Part shown: in pieces, positions 14,805 through 54,061 of the stretch
Layout: the number at the start of each line of letters is the position of its first letter
Position numbering within the stretch: position 1 is the first letter of the stretch
Source: Novibacillus thermophilus
GTDB lineage: Bacteria; Bacillota; Bacilli; Thermoactinomycetales; Novibacillaceae
Assembly (NCBI RefSeq): GCF_002005165.1
Contig: NZ_CP019699.1
Span: 372,001-436,000 of the forward strand
Reading direction: 5' to 3'
DNA length: 64,000 bases
The notes under the pieces: model-generated
What the model saw: the letters and a program-made list of their open reading frames with translations, nothing else
Databases searched by the model: none
What the model was told of the DNA's origin: nothing
Program-made: the position numbers and the translations under genes

Positions 14805-15850
14805 TTAAAGCGGCTCCGACTGGACGTAGTGGTACAGCAGGCGGTACGTGTTGTCCAGCGCTTCTTCATGGGTCCGCTCGTAGGCGTGGGATGCGTCAAC
14901 ACCGGGCCCGATAAGTCCGTGGATGAGATCGTACCCCGCTTTCACAGCGGCGCTCGCATCTGAAGAATAGTGGGGGTAAAGATCGACTTGGTAGTAAATG
15001 TCGTACGTTTTAGCCAAGTGAACCAATTTTTGTCTTAAGTCGTAATGGTACGGGCCGCTTGCGTCTTTGGCGCAAATGGAGACACAGTATTCGTCTGTTG
15101 CCTGTCCGTCCCCGATGGCCCCATGTCCACAGCTAAAAACTCCCGTGTGTGTTCTGGTATGGCCGCATTGGCACCGAAACCGACTTCTTCAAATGTGCTG
15201 AACATGACGTAGGTCGTACACGGGAGAGGCAGATTTTCCCTCACAACGCTGCGAACGAGTTCCATGAGCACGGCTGCGCTCGCTTTGTCGTCCAGATGTC
15301 GCCCTTTAACAAAGCCGGTATCTGTTTTTTCGGCGCGGGGAGCAAACGACACGAAGTCGCCGACGTTAATCCCGAGGGCGCGGACGTCATCGGCCGTTTC
15401 GACTTTGTGGTCGAGGCGTACTTCCATATTGTCTGTTGACCTTTTTTGCTTTTTGGCGTCGTCATATACGTGAACGGATGTGTGGGTGGCGAGAATCGTT
15501 CCGGTGATCATCTTTCCGTTCTGTGTCTCGACGGTGCAGTATTCACCGTCCACTGAGTGCCAAGAGAATCCGCCAATCTTGGAAAGCTTCAGCCGTCCGT
15601 TGTCTTTAATCTCTTTCACCATCGCTCCCAATGTATCGACGTGAGCTGTTAACACACGTCCGACAGATGGATCGCTTCCCGGAAGGATGACGGTCAGTCC
15701 GCCCTTGTTCGTCCGCTCATACGTCACATTCAAGTCAGACATGTGACGTTCGATGTACTGAATGGCGCGCTCTGCTCGGCCAGTTGGACTGGGTGTGTTT
15801 AATAAATCCAACAAGGTAGCGATAATTTCGTGTACAGGCGTTTTTACCAT
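14805..15850 (-). pseudogene. M42-family metallo-aminopeptidase, frameshifted as read
   Basis: Dinuclear-metal aminopeptidase (glutamyl aminopeptidase/YsdC type). The N-terminal part (15035-15850) has TAHVDTLGAMV, KGRHLDDKASA and FSTFEEVGFGAN, which supply the His, Asp and Glu ligands. The C-terminal part (14805-15026) is in another frame and holds YPHYSSDASAA and VDASHAYERTH. Restoring one G in the GGGG run at 15119-15122 joins them through MGAIGDGQATDEYC, exactly the family sequence, giving 348 residues. A sequencing error is as likely as a true mutation. The ATG at 15850 has GGAGGT upstream. It is probably monocistronic. Confidence 0.85.
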
Positions 15851-16090
15851 ACGGACTTCTGACCTCCTTTCGTGGACAAATAACTTGACTCCATTATAAA
15901 TGACCTTTGAAATTTTTAAAAATTACTTTCACATTTTTGAACATTCACTTTAGAGACGACATCACCTGACTTTCATTCCATAGTAAAGGATGCAGTGGGC
16001 CTGAGGAATCTTTAAAGGGGCGGTGTTGTCAGAATGGTCGTCAAAACGTTTATATGCGCCCGGAGACAGTTTTCTTCAGATGCCCGGAAG

Positions 16091-21367: not shown

Positions 21368-22244
21368 TCACGACGGTGTCGAGCTACGGCGCAAGCGCCA
21401 CTGTCTAAAGAGAATGCCGTGCTTCGGAGAAAGGAACAAGGCGATGGCAAATAAGAGGCCAGCGACGCTCACCATCGCTCCGGAGATGGAGACGTTCAGC
21501 CATACAGCAGCCTGATAGCCGATGACGGCTGACAGAGTACCGGTGACAGCACTTCCAAACAGCATCCGGTTTAGGCGGTCGGTCAACAGGTAGGCCGTCG
21601 CTCCCGGTACGATGAGCATCCCGACGACTAAAATGGCGCCGACGCTGCTGAAGGCGGATACGGTCGTGAGGGAGACCATCCCCATCAACAAATAGTGCAT
21701 CGCCACAGCCGAGATTCCAAGGGCAGAAGCCATCGCCGGATCAAAGGCACACAACTTCAACTCTTTGTAAAACATTGTCAACAGGAGCAAGTTCAAAAGG
21801 AGAACACCGCCCACGAGCCAAACGGCCGACGGCAGTTCCACCCCCCGATTACAGTTGTATTGAACGGGACAAAGGCAATTTCTCCGTACAGGACGTGTTG
21901 CACATCCAGGTGGACGTTTTTGGCGTAAAGTGAAACGAGGACCACCCGAGGGCGAACAACGCCGTAAAGACGATACCAATGGCAGCATCCGCCTGCACCC
22001 CCCGGTTGTTCAAACTTTGAACGAGAAAAGCGGTGAAGAGACCGACGATGACAGCACCTATGAGCATGGCGACCCCGTCTAACGTCCGGGTAACTAAAAA
22101 AGCGCCGACAATTCCGAGTAATACCGTGTGGCTGATCGCGTCCGACAGCATCGCCATCCGGCGCAAAATGAGAAAAGAACCGACGATGCCACATGAGATG
22201 CCGACAAGGGAGGCCGTCAACACAATCCATGCTCCGTGGCTCAT
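21368..22244 (-). pseudogene. mntD: Mn/Zn ABC permease MntD-like, two frameshifts as read
   Basis: Membrane subunit of a metal importer (ABC-3 family). The protein runs through three frames: GIVGSFLILRRMAMLSDAISHTVLLG (from 22244), LVSLYAKNVHLDVQHVLYGEIAFVPF (middle) and VWLVGGVLLLNLLLL to the end at 21368. Each switch is repaired by one extra G, in the GGG run at 21945-21947 and the GGGGGG run at 21841-21846. The repaired product is 292 residues, close to B. subtilis MntD. The clean repair suggests base-calling errors, not decay. ATG 22244 overlaps the mntC stop (ATGA). Last gene of mntABCD. Confidence 0.85.
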
Positions 22245-23574
22245 TTGCTCACCGCTCCTTTCTCGTAGATGACATTTCCGACGTGTGGTTCTCCGCTAAA
22301 AGACGCTTCCAACCGCGGTGTCAAACCGTGCGTCTCCATCAACTCCTCCAACTCTTTTACGACAGAGGACGGAAGGGCGGCCACGAGTCCACGGGGATCG
22401 TCCCGCGCCACCCGCCATCCGGAAAAGCGGTGATCGTACATGAGAAGCAGTTGTTCCATCCGCTCTTCTTTCACGATCTGGTAGGCGCGGTTCAACCCTT
22501 GCCGGGTAAAACCGTACATATGCTCGCTTTGCGTTATCAAGTTGAGGCGTTCTGCTTGACGGGTCACTCGATTTAATTTGTGACGGGACCAGCCGGTCAA
22601 CGTCCGGAGCACATCTTCTGTGACCGTTGATTGTCTCTGGTCTTCCATGTGTCGGGCCATGCCCTCTAGTAAAGTGCGCAGACGGTCTTCACGGCGCACT
22701 TTTAGCTGTCTCAGGGCAGTGACGACGAGTCCGCGCCGCGTGCCAAACAGAAGAGAGGCGACAAAGGCACAGGTCGCACTCAACACGATGAGCGGACCCG
22801 TCGCCAGCCCCTCGCCTAACGTGCTGACAAGCGTGCCGACTATCCCGCTGATTCCACCGAACAGTCCGGCGAGGACGGCGAGAACCCCGAGGCGCTCCGT
22901 CCAGTATCTGGCGGCGATTGCCGGTGTAATAAGCATGGCCGCCATCAGGACGACGCCAACGGCTTGCAGACCGACAACGACGGCACACGTGACGAGGATC
23001 ATGAGGAAAGCTTCGATGACCCCCATCGGGAAACCGATCCCTCGCCCAAATCCTGGGTCAAAGCTCAGCAGCTTAAACTCTTTAAAAAAGAGGAACGAAG
23101 CGGAAAGCAACAGCAGCGAGACGGCGATCAGAACGTGGACGTCGCGGTCGACGAGGGAAGCCGCCTGTCCGAGCATATAGGCGTCGAGGCCGCTGTGGTT
23201 CCCGTACGGGCCGTTTTGAATGAGCGTCATCAAGACCACGCCGAATCCGAAAAAGACGCTGAGTACAATGCCGAGGGCGGCATCTTGTTTCATGCGGGAC
23301 TTTCGTGTCATAAACTGTATCGCCCATGCCCCGAAGAGAGCTGTTACGGCCGCCCGAACATCGACAGCCCGACGGATTTCACCCCTGTCAATAAAAAGGC
23401 GAAACATATGCCAGGTAAGGCAGCGTGGGACATAGCATCTCCGAGCAGGCTCTGCTTGCGCAGGACGACAAAGCTGCCGAGCACGCCACTCGAAATCCCT
23501 AACAGCATCGTGCCGGCAAGCACCCAGCGCACGTTGGCGCTTCCGAAGATGCTAAGGATCAGCTCCATCCCCAT
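22241..23574 (-). pseudogene. mntC: Mn/Zn ABC permease MntC-like with C-terminal extension, one frameshift as read
   Basis: ABC-3 family membrane subunit. The first ~75 residues (VLGSFVVLRKQSLLGDAMSHAALPG) read from 23574, and the rest reads in another frame from about 23350. Adding one G at 23353-23355 joins them (SMFGAAVTALFGAW) into 444 residues. Beyond the membrane part, the last ~150 residues form a soluble extension with helix-turn-helix character (STVTEDVLRTLTGWSRHKLNRVTRQAERLN in two parts), resembling DtxR/MntR-type domains. B. subtilis MntC also has a long tail (435 residues). ATG 23574 overlaps the mntB stop codon. Confidence 0.85.
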
Positions 23575-24329
23575 CACCCTCCTTTTGCGACAGACTCCGT
23601 CTGTTTTGTCACGAACGTCAACCGGCCCCCGTACGTTTTTTGCAAGTTGTCGGGTGTAAAGGTGACGTCTGTCGGGCCGATGGCTATCTTGCGCATGTTG
23701 AGAAGCAGAACCCAGTCGAAGTATTCAGAGACTGTTTGCAGGTCGTGGTGTACGACGACGACCGTCTTTCCTTCCCCGTTCAGCGTTTTTAATATGTTGA
23801 GAATCGCCGCTTCTGTAGCCGCGTCGACTCCGGAGAACGGCTCATCCATAAAGTACAGGTCCGCTTCCTGTGCCAATGCCCGCGCGAGGAACACCCGCTG
23901 TTGCTGACCGCCGGACAACTGGCTGATCTGCCGCCCGGCGTAATCAGCCATCCCGACTTTGTCCAGGCATTCCATTGCTATCGCTTTATCCCGTTTTCCC
24001 GGCCGTTTTACCCAGCCGACATGGCCGTAGCGGCCCATCAACACGACATCCAAAGCGTTCGTCGGAAAATCCCAGTCAACGGATTCCCGTTGCGGGACGT
24101 ACCCAATCCGTCGCCTCACGCGGCGGTACGGCTGACCGAACAGCTTCACGTCTCCGGCTGTTTTCGGCACCAGGCCGAGGATACTCTTTAACAGCGTGCT
24201 TTTGCCTGCGCCGTTCGGCCCGACGACAGCCAGCAATGTGCTGTCAGGTACAGAAAACGTGACGTCTTTTAACACGGGTTTATTGTGATAAGCGACCGTT
24301 AAGTGTTGAACGTCTAGCGGTTGCTCCAT
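23574..24329 (-). CDS. mntB: Mn/Zn ABC transporter ATPase
   Basis: Powers import through MntC/MntD. 251 residues with Walker [14 protein letters not shown]-loop [14 protein letters not shown] (the QR..DWDFP form is typical of metal-type ABC ATPases), signature LSGGQQQRV, Walker [13 protein letters not shown] and H-loop [11 protein letters not shown] 24329 follows AAGGGGGA. Second gene of the operon, 29 bases after mntA. Confidence 0.95.
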
Positions 24330-40345: not shown

Positions 40346-40439
40346 GTGCAAAACGTGACAACTGTCATGTCGATTCCTTGACCGTTGTGAATATGCAAGG
40401 TGCTTAAGTCGGGGGTAAAATGCAACGTGACCAAACACG

Positions 40440-41644
40440 ATGAAACGAGGGATTGACGTGAAAGTACAGCACGGACGCATCCGAATACTTGATATATTGC
40501 GGGGATTTGCCATTTTGGGTACCCTTGGAACGAACATTTGGCTGTTTGCCAACTTGGGAGATCTGTCGTACGTCCTTACGTTGGACCGTCCGGCTTGGTG
40601 GACCTCGCTGGACGAGTTCATCCGGGTATTTGTCCTGTTTTTCGTAAATGGAAAATTTCTCAGCATATTAGCTATCCTGTTCGGCGTCGGGTTAGAATTA
40701 AAGTACCGGCAATCGCTGCGGAAAGGATCAGTTTGGCCGGGCTTGTACATCTGGACGTCACTGATTTTGTTGGCGGAAGGCTTTATTCACTTCACACTGG
40801 TGATGGAATATGACATTTTAATGAGTTATGCCGTGACAGCGATCATCGTTTCATTTATTGTTAAACGTGGGGACAAAGCGATTCAACGGGTCATGGCTGC
40901 CGTTTTAGTCGCACACGTTTCGATCGTCGTGCTTCTTTTTGGCGCGATGATCGCTGCTCACCTTGCCGGGGCCAATCTTTCCCTCGGCGATATGAGCGAA
41001 GTGGTGACGCTGTACAAAGACGGTACGTGGATGGAGCAGGTCCATTACCGCTTGTCCGATTTCTGGATTTTGCGCAGCGAGGTCATTTTTGTCATTCCGC
41101 TGAATGTGTTTTTATTCCTGTTCGGGATTCGCCTGATGCGCGCCGGTGCGTTTTCTCCAGAGGAAAGGGGAAGACGCATCCGCCGGAAAATGCTGAACGT
41201 TGGACTCGTTCTCGGTCTTCCCCTTAATTTACTCATATTGGTTCCCGGGGGATGTTTGATCTGCCAATTCGGTATTTGTTTGCACCGCTCATGGCGGTCG
41301 GTTACATGGCCTTCATCGCTAAGCTAGTCGAGTGGAATCCGTCCTTCAAGTTGTGGGCTTCCGTGGAGCGGATCGGCAAGATGGCCCTCAGCTGTTATAT
41401 ACTGCAAAATGTGTTGGCATCTTTTCTCTTTTACGGTTGGGGCCTTGGACTCGGAGGAAAGGTCGATGCACTCACAACCGTCTTGGTTTGGCTCGCCATG
41501 AGTGTATGTCAACTGGGAATTGCTTCACTTTGGCTGCGATATTTCCGTTTCGGCCCGATGGAATGGCTCCGCCGCTATATCGCTTCCCTGCCAGCTGGAG
41601 GAAGGATGCATGATTCAAAAGCTGTACCCAAAAGACCAGATTGA
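40440..41644 (+). pseudogene. DUF418 (YeiB-like) membrane protein, frameshifted as read
   Basis: Multi-pass membrane protein. The first frame (40440-41327) starts ILDILRGFAILGTLGTNIWLF and has FFVNGKFLSILAILFGVGLEL; the second (to 41644) has the C-terminal DUF418 part, RIGKMALSCYILQNVLASFLFY. Adding one G in the GGGGG run at 41247-41251 joins them as VPGGMFDLPIRYLF, giving about 400 residues, the family length. Base-calling error is likely. The start is ATG 40440, or GTG 40458 with a closer binding site. The gene overlaps desK by 35 bases, so it heads the desKR operon. Confidence 0.8.
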
Positions 41645-44710: not shown

Positions 44711-44936
44711 CGCAGTCACTCCTTCGTTCACGAAGTGGATGTCGACTCTTTTTTCATCAGCATCTGACTAAGTGAAACGTATCACAACAGGGAGGCTCTG
44801 GCAATCCCGGTTCAAGAACCTGACGGAGCCACGAGGTCGATCATGCATGAATTAATTTTGTATCACTGTGACAGGGGAACCGTATTTTTGATTTGTGAAG
44901 TGGGGCAGCCTCGCCTCTGATGTTAAAAAAAAGGGG

Positions 44937-44983
44937 TTGCAAAAGGGGAAGGAGTGTTATACTGTATATATTAACATTAACAC
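44937..44983 (+). promoter_or_regulatory. promoter and possible GntR operator of the ABC operon
   Basis: TTGCAA (44937-44942) and TATACT (44958-44963) with a short 15-base spacer. GTGTTA (44954-44959) and TAACAC (44978-44983) form an inverted repeat with an 18-base gap across the -10 and start region. The operon's own GntR (YtrA-type) regulator is the obvious candidate to bind it. Confidence 0.45.
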
Positions 44984-45032
44984 GTAAACACTTTTGAAAG
45001 CATCATTCGCTTTTGTCCAAGGAGGATGGGCC

Positions 45033-45776
45033 GTGTCTGATCAACAGTTCATGTGGCAGCTGGTGAAGTTTGAGTTAACTGGAACGCCGTTCAAGCAGCT
45101 GCTGTTGCGGATGTTAACCGTTGTCGTAATGGGCGCAGCGTTTGAACTGATACTGTTAGTCTTGGTGGAAGACAATCCTGATGGTTATGGCGCGATCATA
45201 TTTGATGTCGTTTTACTCAGTATCGTGTTGTATTATCCACTGCTGTTGCGCTTACCTCCTTTCCGTTCTGCCGATTTGAAAAGCGGCTTGTACGCTGCTC
45301 CGTTTTACGTCTATGCTACGCGGCTGCCGATTCCCCAACGTGTACTGATGAGGAGCCGGTTTGTCCTCTCCTTCGTGTATACAGTTGGAGCGACAGTGAT
45401 AGCCATTGTCTTAGCCTACGTATACCCCGGCACGGTTCGTTCGCTTTTTACACCGGGGGAATTTGGGGCGTTTCTCACAATGTGGGGCCTAGTGGCAGCG
45501 GCTGCTTCCGGTTTGATCGTAGCGGGTGAAGTGGGGGGCACTTACACGAAAAAGGAGATTTTTGGTTACAGCACTGTCTTTTTGTTCGTCGTCATTGTCG
45601 CACTGTTCGGTTTGAAGTGGTTCACAGGCGATATTTTCGTCGGCTTAACGATTGAACTGTCGAAAAACGCTCCGCTAAAGGGAATGGCTGGCACATTCGG
45701 ACTGGCTGTTGTCTTGAATGGGATATGGTACCTGGAAGCGAAAAGGTACGCGCGAAAGGTGGACTACCATGTGTAA
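45033..45776 (+). CDS. ABC-type exporter membrane subunit (YtrC/D-like)
   Basis: About 247 residues with six hydrophobic segments (VVVMGAAFELILLVL, FDVVLLSIVLYYPLLL, VLSFVYTVGATVIAIVLAYV, MWGLVAAAASGLIVAG, TVFLFVVIVALFGL, GTFGLAVVLNGIWYL), as expected of an ABC permease. GTG 45033 follows AAGGAGG and is the start, not the upstream ATG. First gene of a four-gene operon; it probably pairs with the ATPase encoded in the next frame. Confidence 0.75.
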   Translation: MSDQQFMWQLVKFELTGTPFKQLLLRMLTVVVMGAAFELILLVLVEDNPDGYGAIIFDVVLLSIVLYYPLLLRLPPFRSADLKSGLYAAPFYVYATRLPIPQRVLMRSRFVLSFVYTVGATVIAIVLAYVYPGTVRSLFTPGEFGAFLTMWGLVAAAASGLIVAGEVGGTYTKKEIFGYSTVFLFVVIVALFGLKWFTGDIFVGLTIELSKNAPLKGMAGTFGLAVVLNGIWYLEAKRYARKVDYHV

Positions 45777-45802
45777 GTTACCAGATGAAGGGGGCGGAGA
45801 CG

Positions 45803-47068
45803 GTGAAATTGCCCATCGACCTCTCGGAAGACTCCCGCGAACCGATGTACCATCAGATTGAAGCGCAGATTAAAGCGCTGATCGTGTCCGGCTATTTGAA
45901 ACCCGGAAGCCCGCTGCCGTCTATCCGCTCGCTGGCCAAAGATTTGTCGTGCAGTGTGATCACTACGGGACGTGCCTACAACAATTTAGAGCAGCAAGGC
46001 TATATCAAATCGGCACAAGGGAAAGGGACGTTCGTCGCCGACATGGATTCCGCTAAGATCGCTGAAGCGAAACGCGCGACGGTGATGCGGACGTTGGAAC
46101 GGGCTGTGCAGACGGCATTGCAACACGACTACAGGGCACAGGACATCCAAAACATGGTTGCCGACATATTGAGAAAAAGGGGAGGTCGCACAGTGAAGGC
46201 GATTGAACTGGCAAACGTCAGAAAAACGATGGACACGTTTACGATCGGTCCTGTCAATGTGAGTATCGATGCCGGAAGTGTCATAGGAATCGTCGGTAAC
46301 AACGGAGCGGGAAAATCGTCTCTGTTTCGTTTGATGGTGGGGCTCGTGAAGTGTGAAGCTGGTGACATCCGCCTCGTCGGATACGACGTGAAGAAAGACG
46401 CTGTCCAATTAAAGCGTGAAACTGCCTACGTCTCCCAAACGGTCAAAGAGCAGGGCAGTTTTACGTTAAACGATTTGGCCAGATTGCACCGGATCGCCTA
46501 TGGCGACTGGTCGACCACCGAGTTTCAGAGGTACGTGAACATCTTTCAATTGCCATTAAATCAACGTTTGGATACTCTGTCCATCGGTATGCAAAAAAAA
46601 GCAATGCTCGCTCTCCAATTGAGCAGGGGCTCCCGTCTGTTACTCTTGGATGAGCCGTATGCGGGGCTCGATTTGACGGGGCAGCACATCCTCGATGAGG
46701 AAATTGTGGCTTATATGGAGCGGGGAGAAGGACAGACCGTCGTCTTTACCTCCCACTCGGGAGATGAAATTAAACGGATGGCCGATTACATCTGGCTTAT
46801 TCGCGACGGGCAACATGCGGGGTTTTACGAGAAAGACAGCTTACAGCGCAGGTGGGGCAGAGTGTGGCTCAGTGAACCGCTTCCCCACGGACAGGATGTT
46901 CCCGGTGTCGTACGCGCGGAAGCATCCGGCACTGAGCTTGTCACTGACCGCCTAGGAGACACACTGGCTGCCCTTAACTCTAGCGTCGCCCACTGGCAGT
47001 CGATGGATTTGAGAGATATCGTGGCCGAACTGCTGCGGCAGCAGGGGAAGGGAGGAGTTAAGTTATGA
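45803..47068 (+). CDS. GntR (YtrA-type) regulator fused in frame to an ABC ATPase
   Basis: One frame encodes two proteins that are normally separate. Residues 1-130 are a YtrA-type regulator (EPMYHQIEAQIKALIVSGYL, SIRSLAKDL, QGKGTFVAD). From residue 131 an ABC ATPase follows, with Walker A GNNGAGKSSLF, signature LSIGMQKKA and Walker B LLLLDEPYAGLD. At the join, GGGGAGG precedes an in-frame GTG (46193), which would give a 291-residue ATPase, the size of B. subtilis YtrB. If the GGGG run at 46179-46182 lacked one G, the regulator would end at 46206 and the genes would overlap by 14 bases. A true fusion and a sequencing artefact are both open. GTG 45803 follows AAGGGGG. Confidence 0.8.
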   Translation: MKLPIDLSEDSREPMYHQIEAQIKALIVSGYLKPGSPLPSIRSLAKDLSCSVITTGRAYNNLEQQGYIKSAQGKGTFVADMDSAKIAEAKRATVMRTLERAVQTALQHDYRAQDIQNMVADILRKRGGRTVKAIELANVRKTMDTFTIGPVNVSIDAGSVIGIVGNNGAGKSSLFRLMVGLVKCEAGDIRLVGYDVKKDAVQLKRETAYVSQTVKEQGSFTLNDLARLHRIAYGDWSTTEFQRYVNIFQLPLNQRLDTLSIGMQKKAMLALQLSRGSRLLLLDEPYAGLDLTGQHILDEEIVAYMERGEGQTVVFTSHSGDEIKRMADYIWLIRDGQHAGFYEKDSLQRRWGRVWLSEPLPHGQDVPGVVRAEASGTELVTDRLGDTLAALNSSVAHWQSMDLRDIVAELLRQQGKGGVKL

Positions 47069-47964
47069 GTTTATCTATACAAGAAGTGTCCAAGCGCTTC
47101 GGAACGAAGACGGTTGTAGACCGCCTGTCTCTGTCAGTCGGACGCGGCCAGATGTTTGGTCTGCTCGGAGCAAACGGCGCGGGAAAAACGACGACATTCC
47201 GCATGATTCTCGGTTTGATGAAGCCAAGTGAAGGGTCGATTCGCTGGTCTGGAAAGACCTTAGACTACTCAAACTGCGATGTTGTCGGGTACCTTCCAGA
47301 AGAGCGAGGCCTGTATCCAAAACTGACGGCAGAAAAGCAGATCGTTCTTCTGGGGCGGTTGCGCGGCATGAAGCGGCGCGACGTTCTGCAGGAAATGCAC
47401 AAGTGGCTGGAATACTTTGGTATTCCCGAATACGCCAACAAAAAAATTGAAGAGTTGTCTAAAGGAAACCAGCAAAAGATTCAATTTATCGCCGCTGTGA
47501 TTCATCGGCCCGAACTCATCATTTTAGATGAACCGTTCAGCGGCCTGGACCCCGTCAATGTAGAAATACTGAAACAAGCCGTTTTGCAGTTGAAAGAAAA
47601 AGGGGCGACGATACTGTTTTCCAGTCACCGCATGGAACACGTGGAAGAACTGTGTGAAAAGTTGTGCATTTTGGATCACGGGCGTCCCGTTGTGTTGGGA
47701 GAGCTACAGAAAATTAAGCGGCAGTATCGAAAGAAACACGTGGTGATTGAAGCAGATTTCGACCTCGGTTTTCTCCAGGGAATACCTGGTGTCATTCGTT
47801 TGAAACAGCGGACGTCTGGGGCGCGAATTCAAGTTGAAGATGAAGCGGTCGCCAAACGACTTTTTCACGAAGTGGCAAAAAAAGGATTTGTGCGGAAGTT
47901 TGTCGTGGAAGAGCCGACGCTGAACGACATTTTTATTGAAAAGGTAGGGAACAAGGATGCGTAA
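47065..47964 (+). CDS. ABC exporter ATPase (YhaQ/NatA-like)
   Basis: 299 residues. Walker A GANGAGKTTTF, signature LSKGNQQKI, Walker B LIILDEPFSGLDP and H-loop SSHRMEHVEEL. The C-terminal ~80 residues are the extra domain of Na+/drug-type exporters. The start ATG overlaps the previous stop by 4 bases. It should energise the permease encoded directly downstream. Confidence 0.9.
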   Translation: MSLSIQEVSKRFGTKTVVDRLSLSVGRGQMFGLLGANGAGKTTTFRMILGLMKPSEGSIRWSGKTLDYSNCDVVGYLPEERGLYPKLTAEKQIVLLGRLRGMKRRDVLQEMHKWLEYFGIPEYANKKIEELSKGNQQKIQFIAAVIHRPELIILDEPFSGLDPVNVEILKQAVLQLKEKGATILFSSHRMEHVEELCEKLCILDHGRPVVLGELQKIKRQYRKKHVVIEADFDLGFLQGIPGVIRLKQRTSGARIQVEDEAVAKRLFHEVAKKGFVRKFVVEEPTLNDIFIEKVGNKDA

Positions 47965-49228
47965 ATACTGGACGATCGTCGGACACACGTTCTCCAAGTA
48001 CACAGGAAACAAGTCGTTTTTTATCTCAACCGTGATCAGCATCGTGTTTATCGTGGGACTCATCAACGCAGATGTGATGATGTCTTGGTTTAAAGGGAAC
48101 GACGGGCAACAGGAAGTTGCGGTTATTGACGACAGTGGGCTTGAACTGTATGAAGCGCTGCATGAAGCGTTGGCAGTACAGCATCAGAATGTGGCGTTAG
48201 AACCGTTCACAGGAACGGCAACAGAAGCGATCGCAAGTGTAAAAGAGGGAGAGGTCGGTGCATTTTTACACTTGGAGGCGTCTCAGAACGGTTTGCCGGA
48301 AGGGACTTTCCACGTGGCAGAGAGCGATGCGTTCGAACTTGCCCGACACATAGAGCAGGCGCTGCAAACAGTAAAAGAAACGGTCGCCTTAGAGAAGCTC
48401 GGAGTGTCTCCGGAGGTGCGAAAGTCAGTCAGCGAACCCGTTACTTTCCAGACACAAACTTATGACGAAGCCAATGGGATGTCCGAAGAGGCGCGGGAAC
48501 AGACGCGTTGGCTCGTATATGCGCTGTTGTTTGTTCTCTATCTCGGGATTTTAACGTACGGGAACATGATTGCCTTGGAAGTGGCAACAGAAAAGTCCTC
48601 CCGCGTTATGGAACTGCTCGTTTCAAGTGTCTCGCCTGTTACGCAAATGTTCGGCAAAATTACGGGAATAGCCTTGCTCGGACTATTCCAATTTGGATTG
48701 ATCGGGGGAGCAGGCGCCGTGTCCGTTTGGTATCGCCTCCAAAAGGACAGCGAAAGCGAATGGAGCGGGGTCATCGGTGCTCTCGGATTAGAACGCGTTC
48801 CGGTATCGACAATTGTGTACGTGGTCGTGTTCTTTTTGCTCGGTTACCTGCTCTACGCCACATTGTCTGCAACGCTCGGATGTCTGGTCAGCCGGTCGGA
48901 AGACGTCAACCAGGCCATTACACCCGTGATCTACCTTCTGATTACAGCTTTTTTCATCTCAATGTTCGGACTTTCGTCACCGGATTCGCCGTTCATCACC
49001 GCGATGTCGTTTATACCGTTCTTTACTCCGATGATCATGTTTTTGCGAGTCGGTATGACGGAGGTGCCGGCGTGGGAAGTGGGGCTCTCCCTTTTATTCC
49101 TGATCGGATTTATCGTGGCCTGCGCCGTATTCGGTGCACGTGTGTACCGGGGCGGCGTGATGTTGTACGGTAAGTACAGTTCCTGGAAGGACATCCGCAA
49201 GGCGTTTGTCATGAGTCAGGACACGTGA
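47957..49228 (+). CDS. ABC-2 type permease (YhaP/NatB-like)
   Basis: 423 residues: one N-terminal membrane helix (FFISTVISIVFIVGLI), a ~150-residue extracytoplasmic domain, then five helices beginning LVYALLFVLYLGILTYGNMIALEVATEKSSRVMELLVSSV, quoted here in two halves at GN. The EVATEKSSRVMELL block is the family signature. It overlaps the ATPase gene by 8 bases. The exported compound is unknown; relatives handle sodium, antibiotics or peptides. Confidence 0.9.
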   Translation: MRKYWTIVGHTFSKYTGNKSFFISTVISIVFIVGLINADVMMSWFKGNDGQQEVAVIDDSGLELYEALHEALAVQHQNVALEPFTGTATEAIASVKEGEVGAFLHLEASQNGLPEGTFHVAESDAFELARHIEQALQTVKETVALEKLGVSPEVRKSVSEPVTFQTQTYDEANGMSEEAREQTRWLVYALLFVLYLGILTYGNMIALEVATEKSSRVMELLVSSVSPVTQMFGKITGIALLGLFQFGLIGGAGAVSVWYRLQKDSESEWSGVIGALGLERVPVSTIVYVVVFFLLGYLLYATLSATLGCLVSRSEDVNQAITPVIYLLITAFFISMFGLSSPDSPFITAMSFIPFFTPMIMFLRVGMTEVPAWEVGLSLLFLIGFIVACAVFGARVYRGGVMLYGKYSSWKDIRKAFVMSQDT

Positions 49229-53037: not shown

Positions 53038-53171
53038 TCCATCAACACTCCTTGGTGAGTACATGTAAACGTTATTACTATTATAGTACGTGACAAAAAT
53101 CAATACGTCTAATATAATGTTTAGATAATAATGATCTCATTTTGAGATTGATAGAAAGGGAGCGACAGGGG

Positions 53172-54061
53172 TTGGAACTGAGGCAATTGGAATACTTTAT
53201 TGAAGTGGCCAAACGGGAGCATTTTACCCAGACGGCCAAGGAACTACATGTGGCCCAGTCTGCATTGAGCCGGCAGATTGCCCAGTTGGAAGAAGAACTC
53301 GGTGCCGCGCTCTTTGAACGGGAGGGGCGGAATGTCCGGTTGACGCGAGTAGGGAAACTGTTTCTCACCCGTGCCGAAAACGCTTTAGGCGAGATTGAAA
53401 GGGGAAGGCGGGAAGTGCGCGCTTTTCTCGATCCCGAAATGGGGGAAGTGCGCATCGGGTTTCCCCACAGCTTAGCGATACAACTCATTCCGAATTTGAT
53501 TGCTTCTTTCCGACGCCGACATCCGGGAACGCGCTTTTCCCTTCGTCAAGGACCGGCTGTTGAAGTGACAGACTGTATTGAGAGGGGAGAGCTGGACTTG
53601 GCCCTCGTCTCACCCCCGCCCAGAAGCACCCCGTTCATTGCCTCTGAAACACTGTTTACGGAAGAATTGTTGGCGATTGTCCCCCTGAACACCCCCTCGC
53701 GGTGAAAAAATCCATCCAGTTAAACGAGTTGGCGGACGAACCCTTTATTCTGCTGAAGTCCGGTTACACGCTGCGGTCAATCAGTTGGGAGGCGTGCCGG
53801 GCCGCGGGGTTTGAACCTCAGATTGCGTTTGAAGGAGAGGAGACAGACACGGTTCGCGGTCTGGTGGCCGCTGGGCTCGGGGTCAGCTTATTGCCGGAAA
53901 TTGCCCTCGTCGAGAGGGCGTCAGAATTACAACCTGTCTCGGTAAAGGTGACTGAACCGAAAATTACGCGAAAGTTCAGTGTAATTTACAATAAACAGAG
54001 CGAACTTACACCAGCTGCCCGACTGTTTCGGGAGTTTCTCATTGAAGTTTTAAGAAAATGA
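53172..54061 (+). pseudogene. GltC-like LysR regulator, frameshifted as read
   Basis: The first part (to 53705) has the LysR helix-turn-helix LELRQLEYFIEVAKREHFTQ...VAQSALSRQIAQLEEELG and the start of the effector domain. The second part (53702-54061) continues FILLKSGYTLRSISWE and GLGVSLLPEIAL. Adding one C to the CCCCC run at 53692-53696 joins them as PLNTPLAVKKSI, matching the PLNHPLA block of B. subtilis GltC, and gives 296 residues. Error and mutation cannot be separated. The divergent position suggests control of korAB, linking 2-oxoglutarate level to its oxidation. TTG 53172 is the likely start. Confidence 0.82.

Follow-up and report, generated by a model that had tools for sequence, protein, structure and literature searches.

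The single reading frame in which a GntR-type regulator and an ABC transporter ATPase appear joined in Novibacillus thermophilus is, with good probability, a pair of ordinary adjacent genes that the loss of a single base has merged, most likely through a slip of the assembly. We infer that this slip is an assembly error and not a mutation. The missing base is the best explanation because the two genes lie separately in the nearest relative and in other relatives, and because further frame slips occur in the same assembly. In the window, that is, the whole stretch of 64,000 nucleotides analysed (contig NZ_CP019699.1, positions 372,001 to 436,000), positions 45803-47068 on the plus strand form a single open frame as assembled, which runs from GTG 45803 to TGA 47066-47068 and encodes 421 amino acids with no internal stop. 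The stop-to-stop frame around it begins at 45656; starting from ATG 45725, the longest ORF encodes 447 amino acids. The join holds a G run (46179-46182, plus strand), the motif GGGGAGG (46179-46185) and an in-frame GTG at 46193, downstream of which an out-of-frame TGA ends at 46206. An earlier sequence-only reading had described a regulator and an ATPase in one frame with an internal start at the join, and the open frame, GGGGAGG and GTG 46193 are all present.

The same reading had identified the parts as a YtrA-type GntR regulator and an ABC ATPase, which Pfam, NCBIfam and sequence relatives in the PDB bear out. The ATPase (46193-47068, plus strand) likely has its own ribosome-binding site and start in GGGGAGG and GTG 46193; its assignment rests on Pfam ABC_tran (PF00005; residues 150-286 of the joint frame, 84.7 bits against a cut-off of 25), on the NCBIfam family PmtA and on the ATG found at 2598 in the nearest relative (see below). 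Reading by eye, GNNGAGKS, LSIGMQ and LLLLDEP are found in this part, which we take to be Walker A, signature and Walker B, so that domain and motifs together are those by which ABC transporter ATPases are recognised. The regulator (45803-46206, plus strand) carries the N-terminal GntR winged helix of the YtrA subfamily at residues 16-78 of the joint frame (Pfam PF00392, 54.6 bits, cut-off 27), matches the NCBIfam family PmtR, and has among its PDB sequence relatives the short regulators Lmo2241 and Lin1836. About 50 residues separate the end of the GntR domain at residue 78 from the join (about residues 125-129), a fit by length alone to the YtrA subfamily, for which the accessible part of the source describes a short C-terminal region with two helices and about 50 residues (PMC4494728).

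The nearest relative found in a scan of named genomes is a metagenome-assembled Bacillota genome (MAG), two contigs of which, L009 and L010, cover the locus. Against the joint frame, L009 shows 90% identity in the regulator (126 residues) and 88% in the ATPase, of which it covers the first 199 residues before the contig ends; L010 covers the last ~128 residues at 85%. In the alignment, L009 has one more base than the window at the G-rich stretch 46179-46182. Regulator and ATPase are separate genes there and overlap by 14 bases: the regulator frame, which as assembled in the window continues into the ATPase, stops in L009 at a TGA equivalent in position to 46204-46206, and the ATPase starts with an ATG (2598) at the position of GTG 46193. 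The sequence-only reading had offered, as its alternative, that one base absent at 46179-46182 conceals two overlapping genes, and this is now the best-supported account, the layout of L009 matching it. As evidence against a fusion, that reading had named a relative in which the genes lie apart in precisely this arrangement, and L009 is such a relative. The leading idea of the reading, a transporter with its own DNA-binding domain, is not supported, given that L009 keeps the two genes apart, with the stop at the corresponding place and an equal overlap of 14 bases. Against the best explanation, however, it counts that the L009 contig comes from a MAG at low coverage (1.23 according to its title) and is the sole close relative. 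With respect to L009, dN/dS is 0.102 for the regulator (123 codons) and 0.125 for the ATPase (199 codons); both halves are under purifying selection, as is expected for two working genes. Programmed frameshifting at the join was also considered and is not supported; the run of five A beside the G run is not kept in L009.

According to the missing-base account, the last 14 bases of the repressor gene would normally lie within the ATPase gene, in another frame, and the ATPase would be translated from GTG 46193 by way of GGGGAGG. A base missing from the G-rich stretch before this GTG would cancel the change of frame, and the two genes would then be read as one.

Other genomes were surveyed at several depths for the joint frame. 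Among named genomes, the scan found 25 loci; both parts are visible in 22, and in all 22 regulator and ATPase are separate; the three others show a single part in the stretch examined (ATPase only in L010 and L033, regulator only in L029). In addition to these loci, the window's own genome has two paralogous regulator-ATPase pairs (L002/L006 and L005), both separate, and so is the pair L034 in G001, the only other genome sampled from the same family. In L032, where the two genes are separate, the ATPase frame is itself short. Among 398 genomes sampled from the class, 33 places besides the window's have both domains in the same frame, and 32 of them carry at least one stop, the exception being in genome G076; among 398 genomes sampled from the phylum, the same holds for 36 of 36. 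These counts were made by hand on the best four candidates per genome (E up to 1e-40 and 1e-35, respectively); gene pairs lying in different frames appear as single-domain matches outside them, and three genomes with two-domain places (G029, G063 and G092) were drawn in both samples. Twelve loci of the class sample were read base by base, of which 11 are separate (L048-L058, the only two-domain places for which the location of the stop was checked) and one is joined (L069 of G076). In 42 genomes of the order, with 42 candidates scored in most of them, all four two-domain places besides the window's (G784, G356, G122 and G215) carry a stop, three of the four being already in the class sample. 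Matches were also obtained in 18 plasmid records, 12 of which annotate GntR and ATPase genes under the match and six neither, a count that reflects annotation and not frames.

These surveys bear most directly on a true, selected fusion, in which the repressor's DNA-binding domain would sit on the ATPase and couple the state of transport to operator binding, while a separate ATPase is also made. Such a protein would matter, since it would enable a transporter to occupy its own operator, and the open frame and intact internal start are compatible with it. It could further draw on the independent joint frame of G076 (L069 4029-5372), which is unbroken and combines a GntR domain with a related ABC ATPase. 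That GntR domain, however, scores 20.8 bits where the cut-off is 27, and its match leaves out the first eight positions of the profile. The joint frame did not turn up in the four further genomes of the family that were examined; only one of these, G090, matches at E 1e-30, with the ATPase part alone, and tblastn did not find a regulator part beside it in the stretch examined. The G076 frame looks like a solitary relic, and no further joint frame was found in the samples searched. The check that the sequence-only reading had proposed, a search of genomes for the same fusion, went against it, with the eroded case of G076 as the single hit in the class sample and none in the named loci or the phylum sample. 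A joint frame kept in related genomes, as would mark a genuine GntR-ABC fusion, was not found, and in the window's nearest relative the genes are separate. In the literature search, titles and abstract openings described no GntR-ABC fusion, and the words 'fusion' and 'fused' are absent from the accessible part of PMC4494728. On the evidence of the relatives (L009, the named loci, and the class, phylum and order samples) a selected fusion was rejected as highly improbable, and it is just as doubtful that the strain makes a GntR-ABC protein tying the transporter ATPase to the operon's own operator, next to a free ATPase translated from GTG 46193.

The second line of support for a missing base comes from the rest of the assembly. 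Five other genes in the window, picked by eye from the ORF map, are each split across two frames, with halves that match one family in consecutive profile ranges: an M42 peptidase (14805-15922, minus strand; Pfam, the best NCBIfam match being the NAGGN-system M42 peptidase, below cut-off), two adjoining ABC-3 metal permease genes (21368-22295 and 22241-23724, minus strand; Pfam), a DUF418/YeiB-like protein (40431-41644, plus strand; NCBIfam) and a LysR regulator (53118-54061, plus strand; Pfam). Counted modulo three, four of the five breaks are net one base short, and the fifth has an extra base. Each of the five break intervals holds a G or C run of four or more; random coding intervals of equal lengths hold such runs at frequencies of 0.27 to 0.70, the product being about 0.03 (multiplied by hand). 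A run of five A or T is also present in three of the five, which counts against the best explanation. The sequence-only reading had mentioned other lost G bases in the window: this is largely right in view of the five split genes, four of them one base short and all with a G or C run, but one break has gained a base, and the lost base need not have been a G. Elsewhere in the assembly, the genes for ClpX (L063 10830-12148) and a P-type ATPase (L065 6876-9163) are also split, both with net one base fewer. ClpX being a core gene, its splitting speaks for sequencing slips over decay, though it falls short of proof.

The same data have to be weighed against a rival reading, a genuine deletion of one base that arose recently in this strain. 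The repressor would then have gained an ATPase tail, with a free ATPase still made from GTG 46193; the operon would probably be mis-regulated, and the joint protein would have no selected role. The assembled frame is open, each domain matches its family, and the internal start has kept its ribosome-binding site, all of which speaks for such a deletion, as does the occurrence of split genes in the control genome G215, of the same order. An ab initio scan for frame breaks gave six candidates in the window (64 kb), 14 per 200 kb in this genome (G000), four per 200 kb in G001 and 18 per 200 kb in G215, so that by raw count G215 is worse than the window's genome; the scan is too noisy for a comparison of rates, since it also picks up normal overlapping genes and overlooked two of the five breaks verified in the window, probably by discarding pairs in which a start codon follows a site resembling a ribosome-binding site. 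Scan pairs chosen by hand for strong signals were checked with Pfam. Five of the 14 pairs in this genome gave two verified splits and three cases of two different genes; all four pairs in G001 gave no verified split (one was two different genes, two had a match to one half and one had none); and five of the 18 pairs in G215 gave two verified splits and three without a match. The two verified of five in G215 imply that split genes occur outside this assembly too and that some may be real. On the other side, the G or C run in all five window breaks, together with the split in ClpX, fits assembly slips better, and a recent deletion is regarded as unlikely, if well ahead of a selected fusion. The missing base as an assembly slip is thus preferred, and apparent fusions and split genes in this single-contig assembly should be checked for one-base slips before any biological reading.

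With the missing base restored, the locus would be an ordinary YtrA-type ABC operon of membrane protein, GntR repressor, ATPase, second ATPase and permease. The first gene encodes a membrane-type protein (44994-45776, plus strand; ORF, true start uncertain) that has no Pfam or NCBIfam match and is probably the permease partner of the ATPase. Downstream follow a second, DrrA-like ABC ATPase (47065-47964, plus strand; Pfam ABC_tran and DrrA1-3_C) and an ABC-2 type permease (47957-49228, plus strand; Pfam ABC2_membrane_3, 194.6 bits). The regulator therefore occurs together with ABC transporter genes, the context of YtrA-type operons. L009 aligns to window positions 44858-46789 at 84% DNA identity and likewise has a membrane-protein gene upstream of the regulator. 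In L010 1-2700, the ATPase gene runs to 393; the next gene (850-2637) has the opposite orientation, and neither a second ATPase nor a permease lies beside the ATPase gene, which places the window's second ATPase/permease pair outside the conserved core.

Just upstream of the first gene, a repeat search found a palindrome of 30 bp, GTGTTA-N18-TAACAC (44954-44983, unstranded), with arms of 18 nt as found by the search and 72% complementary. According to the accessible part of PMC4494728, YtrA-type regulators mostly control one ABC-transporter operon through a single long palindromic site, in which GT and AC lie far from the centre. The palindrome is the only exact site in the 3.63-Mb genome, and with up to one mismatch there are three places versus 13 for a reversed control pattern. 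L009 keeps its inner 28 bases with three changes, the TGTTA/TAACA arms being intact and the outermost pair lost, and the neighbouring sequence is also partly kept there. Within the window, the palindrome at up to two mismatches is not beyond chance, which leaves position and conservation as what speaks for it. It is a possible operator, to which the repressor may bind and keep the operon off until a signal arrives.

Several known systems resemble the locus. The best NCBIfam matches of regulator and ATPase are staphylococcal PmtR and PmtA, of the phenol-soluble modulin exporter, at 99 bits (cut-off 200) and 130.8 bits (cut-off 350); the scores lie far under the equivalog cut-offs, so the window genes are not orthologues of these by the NCBIfam test. 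Pairs from Paenibacillus and Cohnella (L011-L028 and L030-L032) have the same two genes in the same order, with 29-36% identity to the joint frame in the best segment, but regulator and ATPase are separate in all 21. The ytrGABCDEF operon of Bacillus subtilis likewise has a GntR-family repressor, the separate gene YtrA, in an ABC-transporter operon (PMC12772383, accessible part). In contrast, the window has a membrane-protein gene before the regulator, a second ATPase/permease pair after it, and regulator and ATPase joined in the assembly. Expression of ytr is switched on by lipid II cycle inhibitors (PMC12772383, accessible part); by analogy, the signal that releases the repressor may perhaps be cell-envelope stress.
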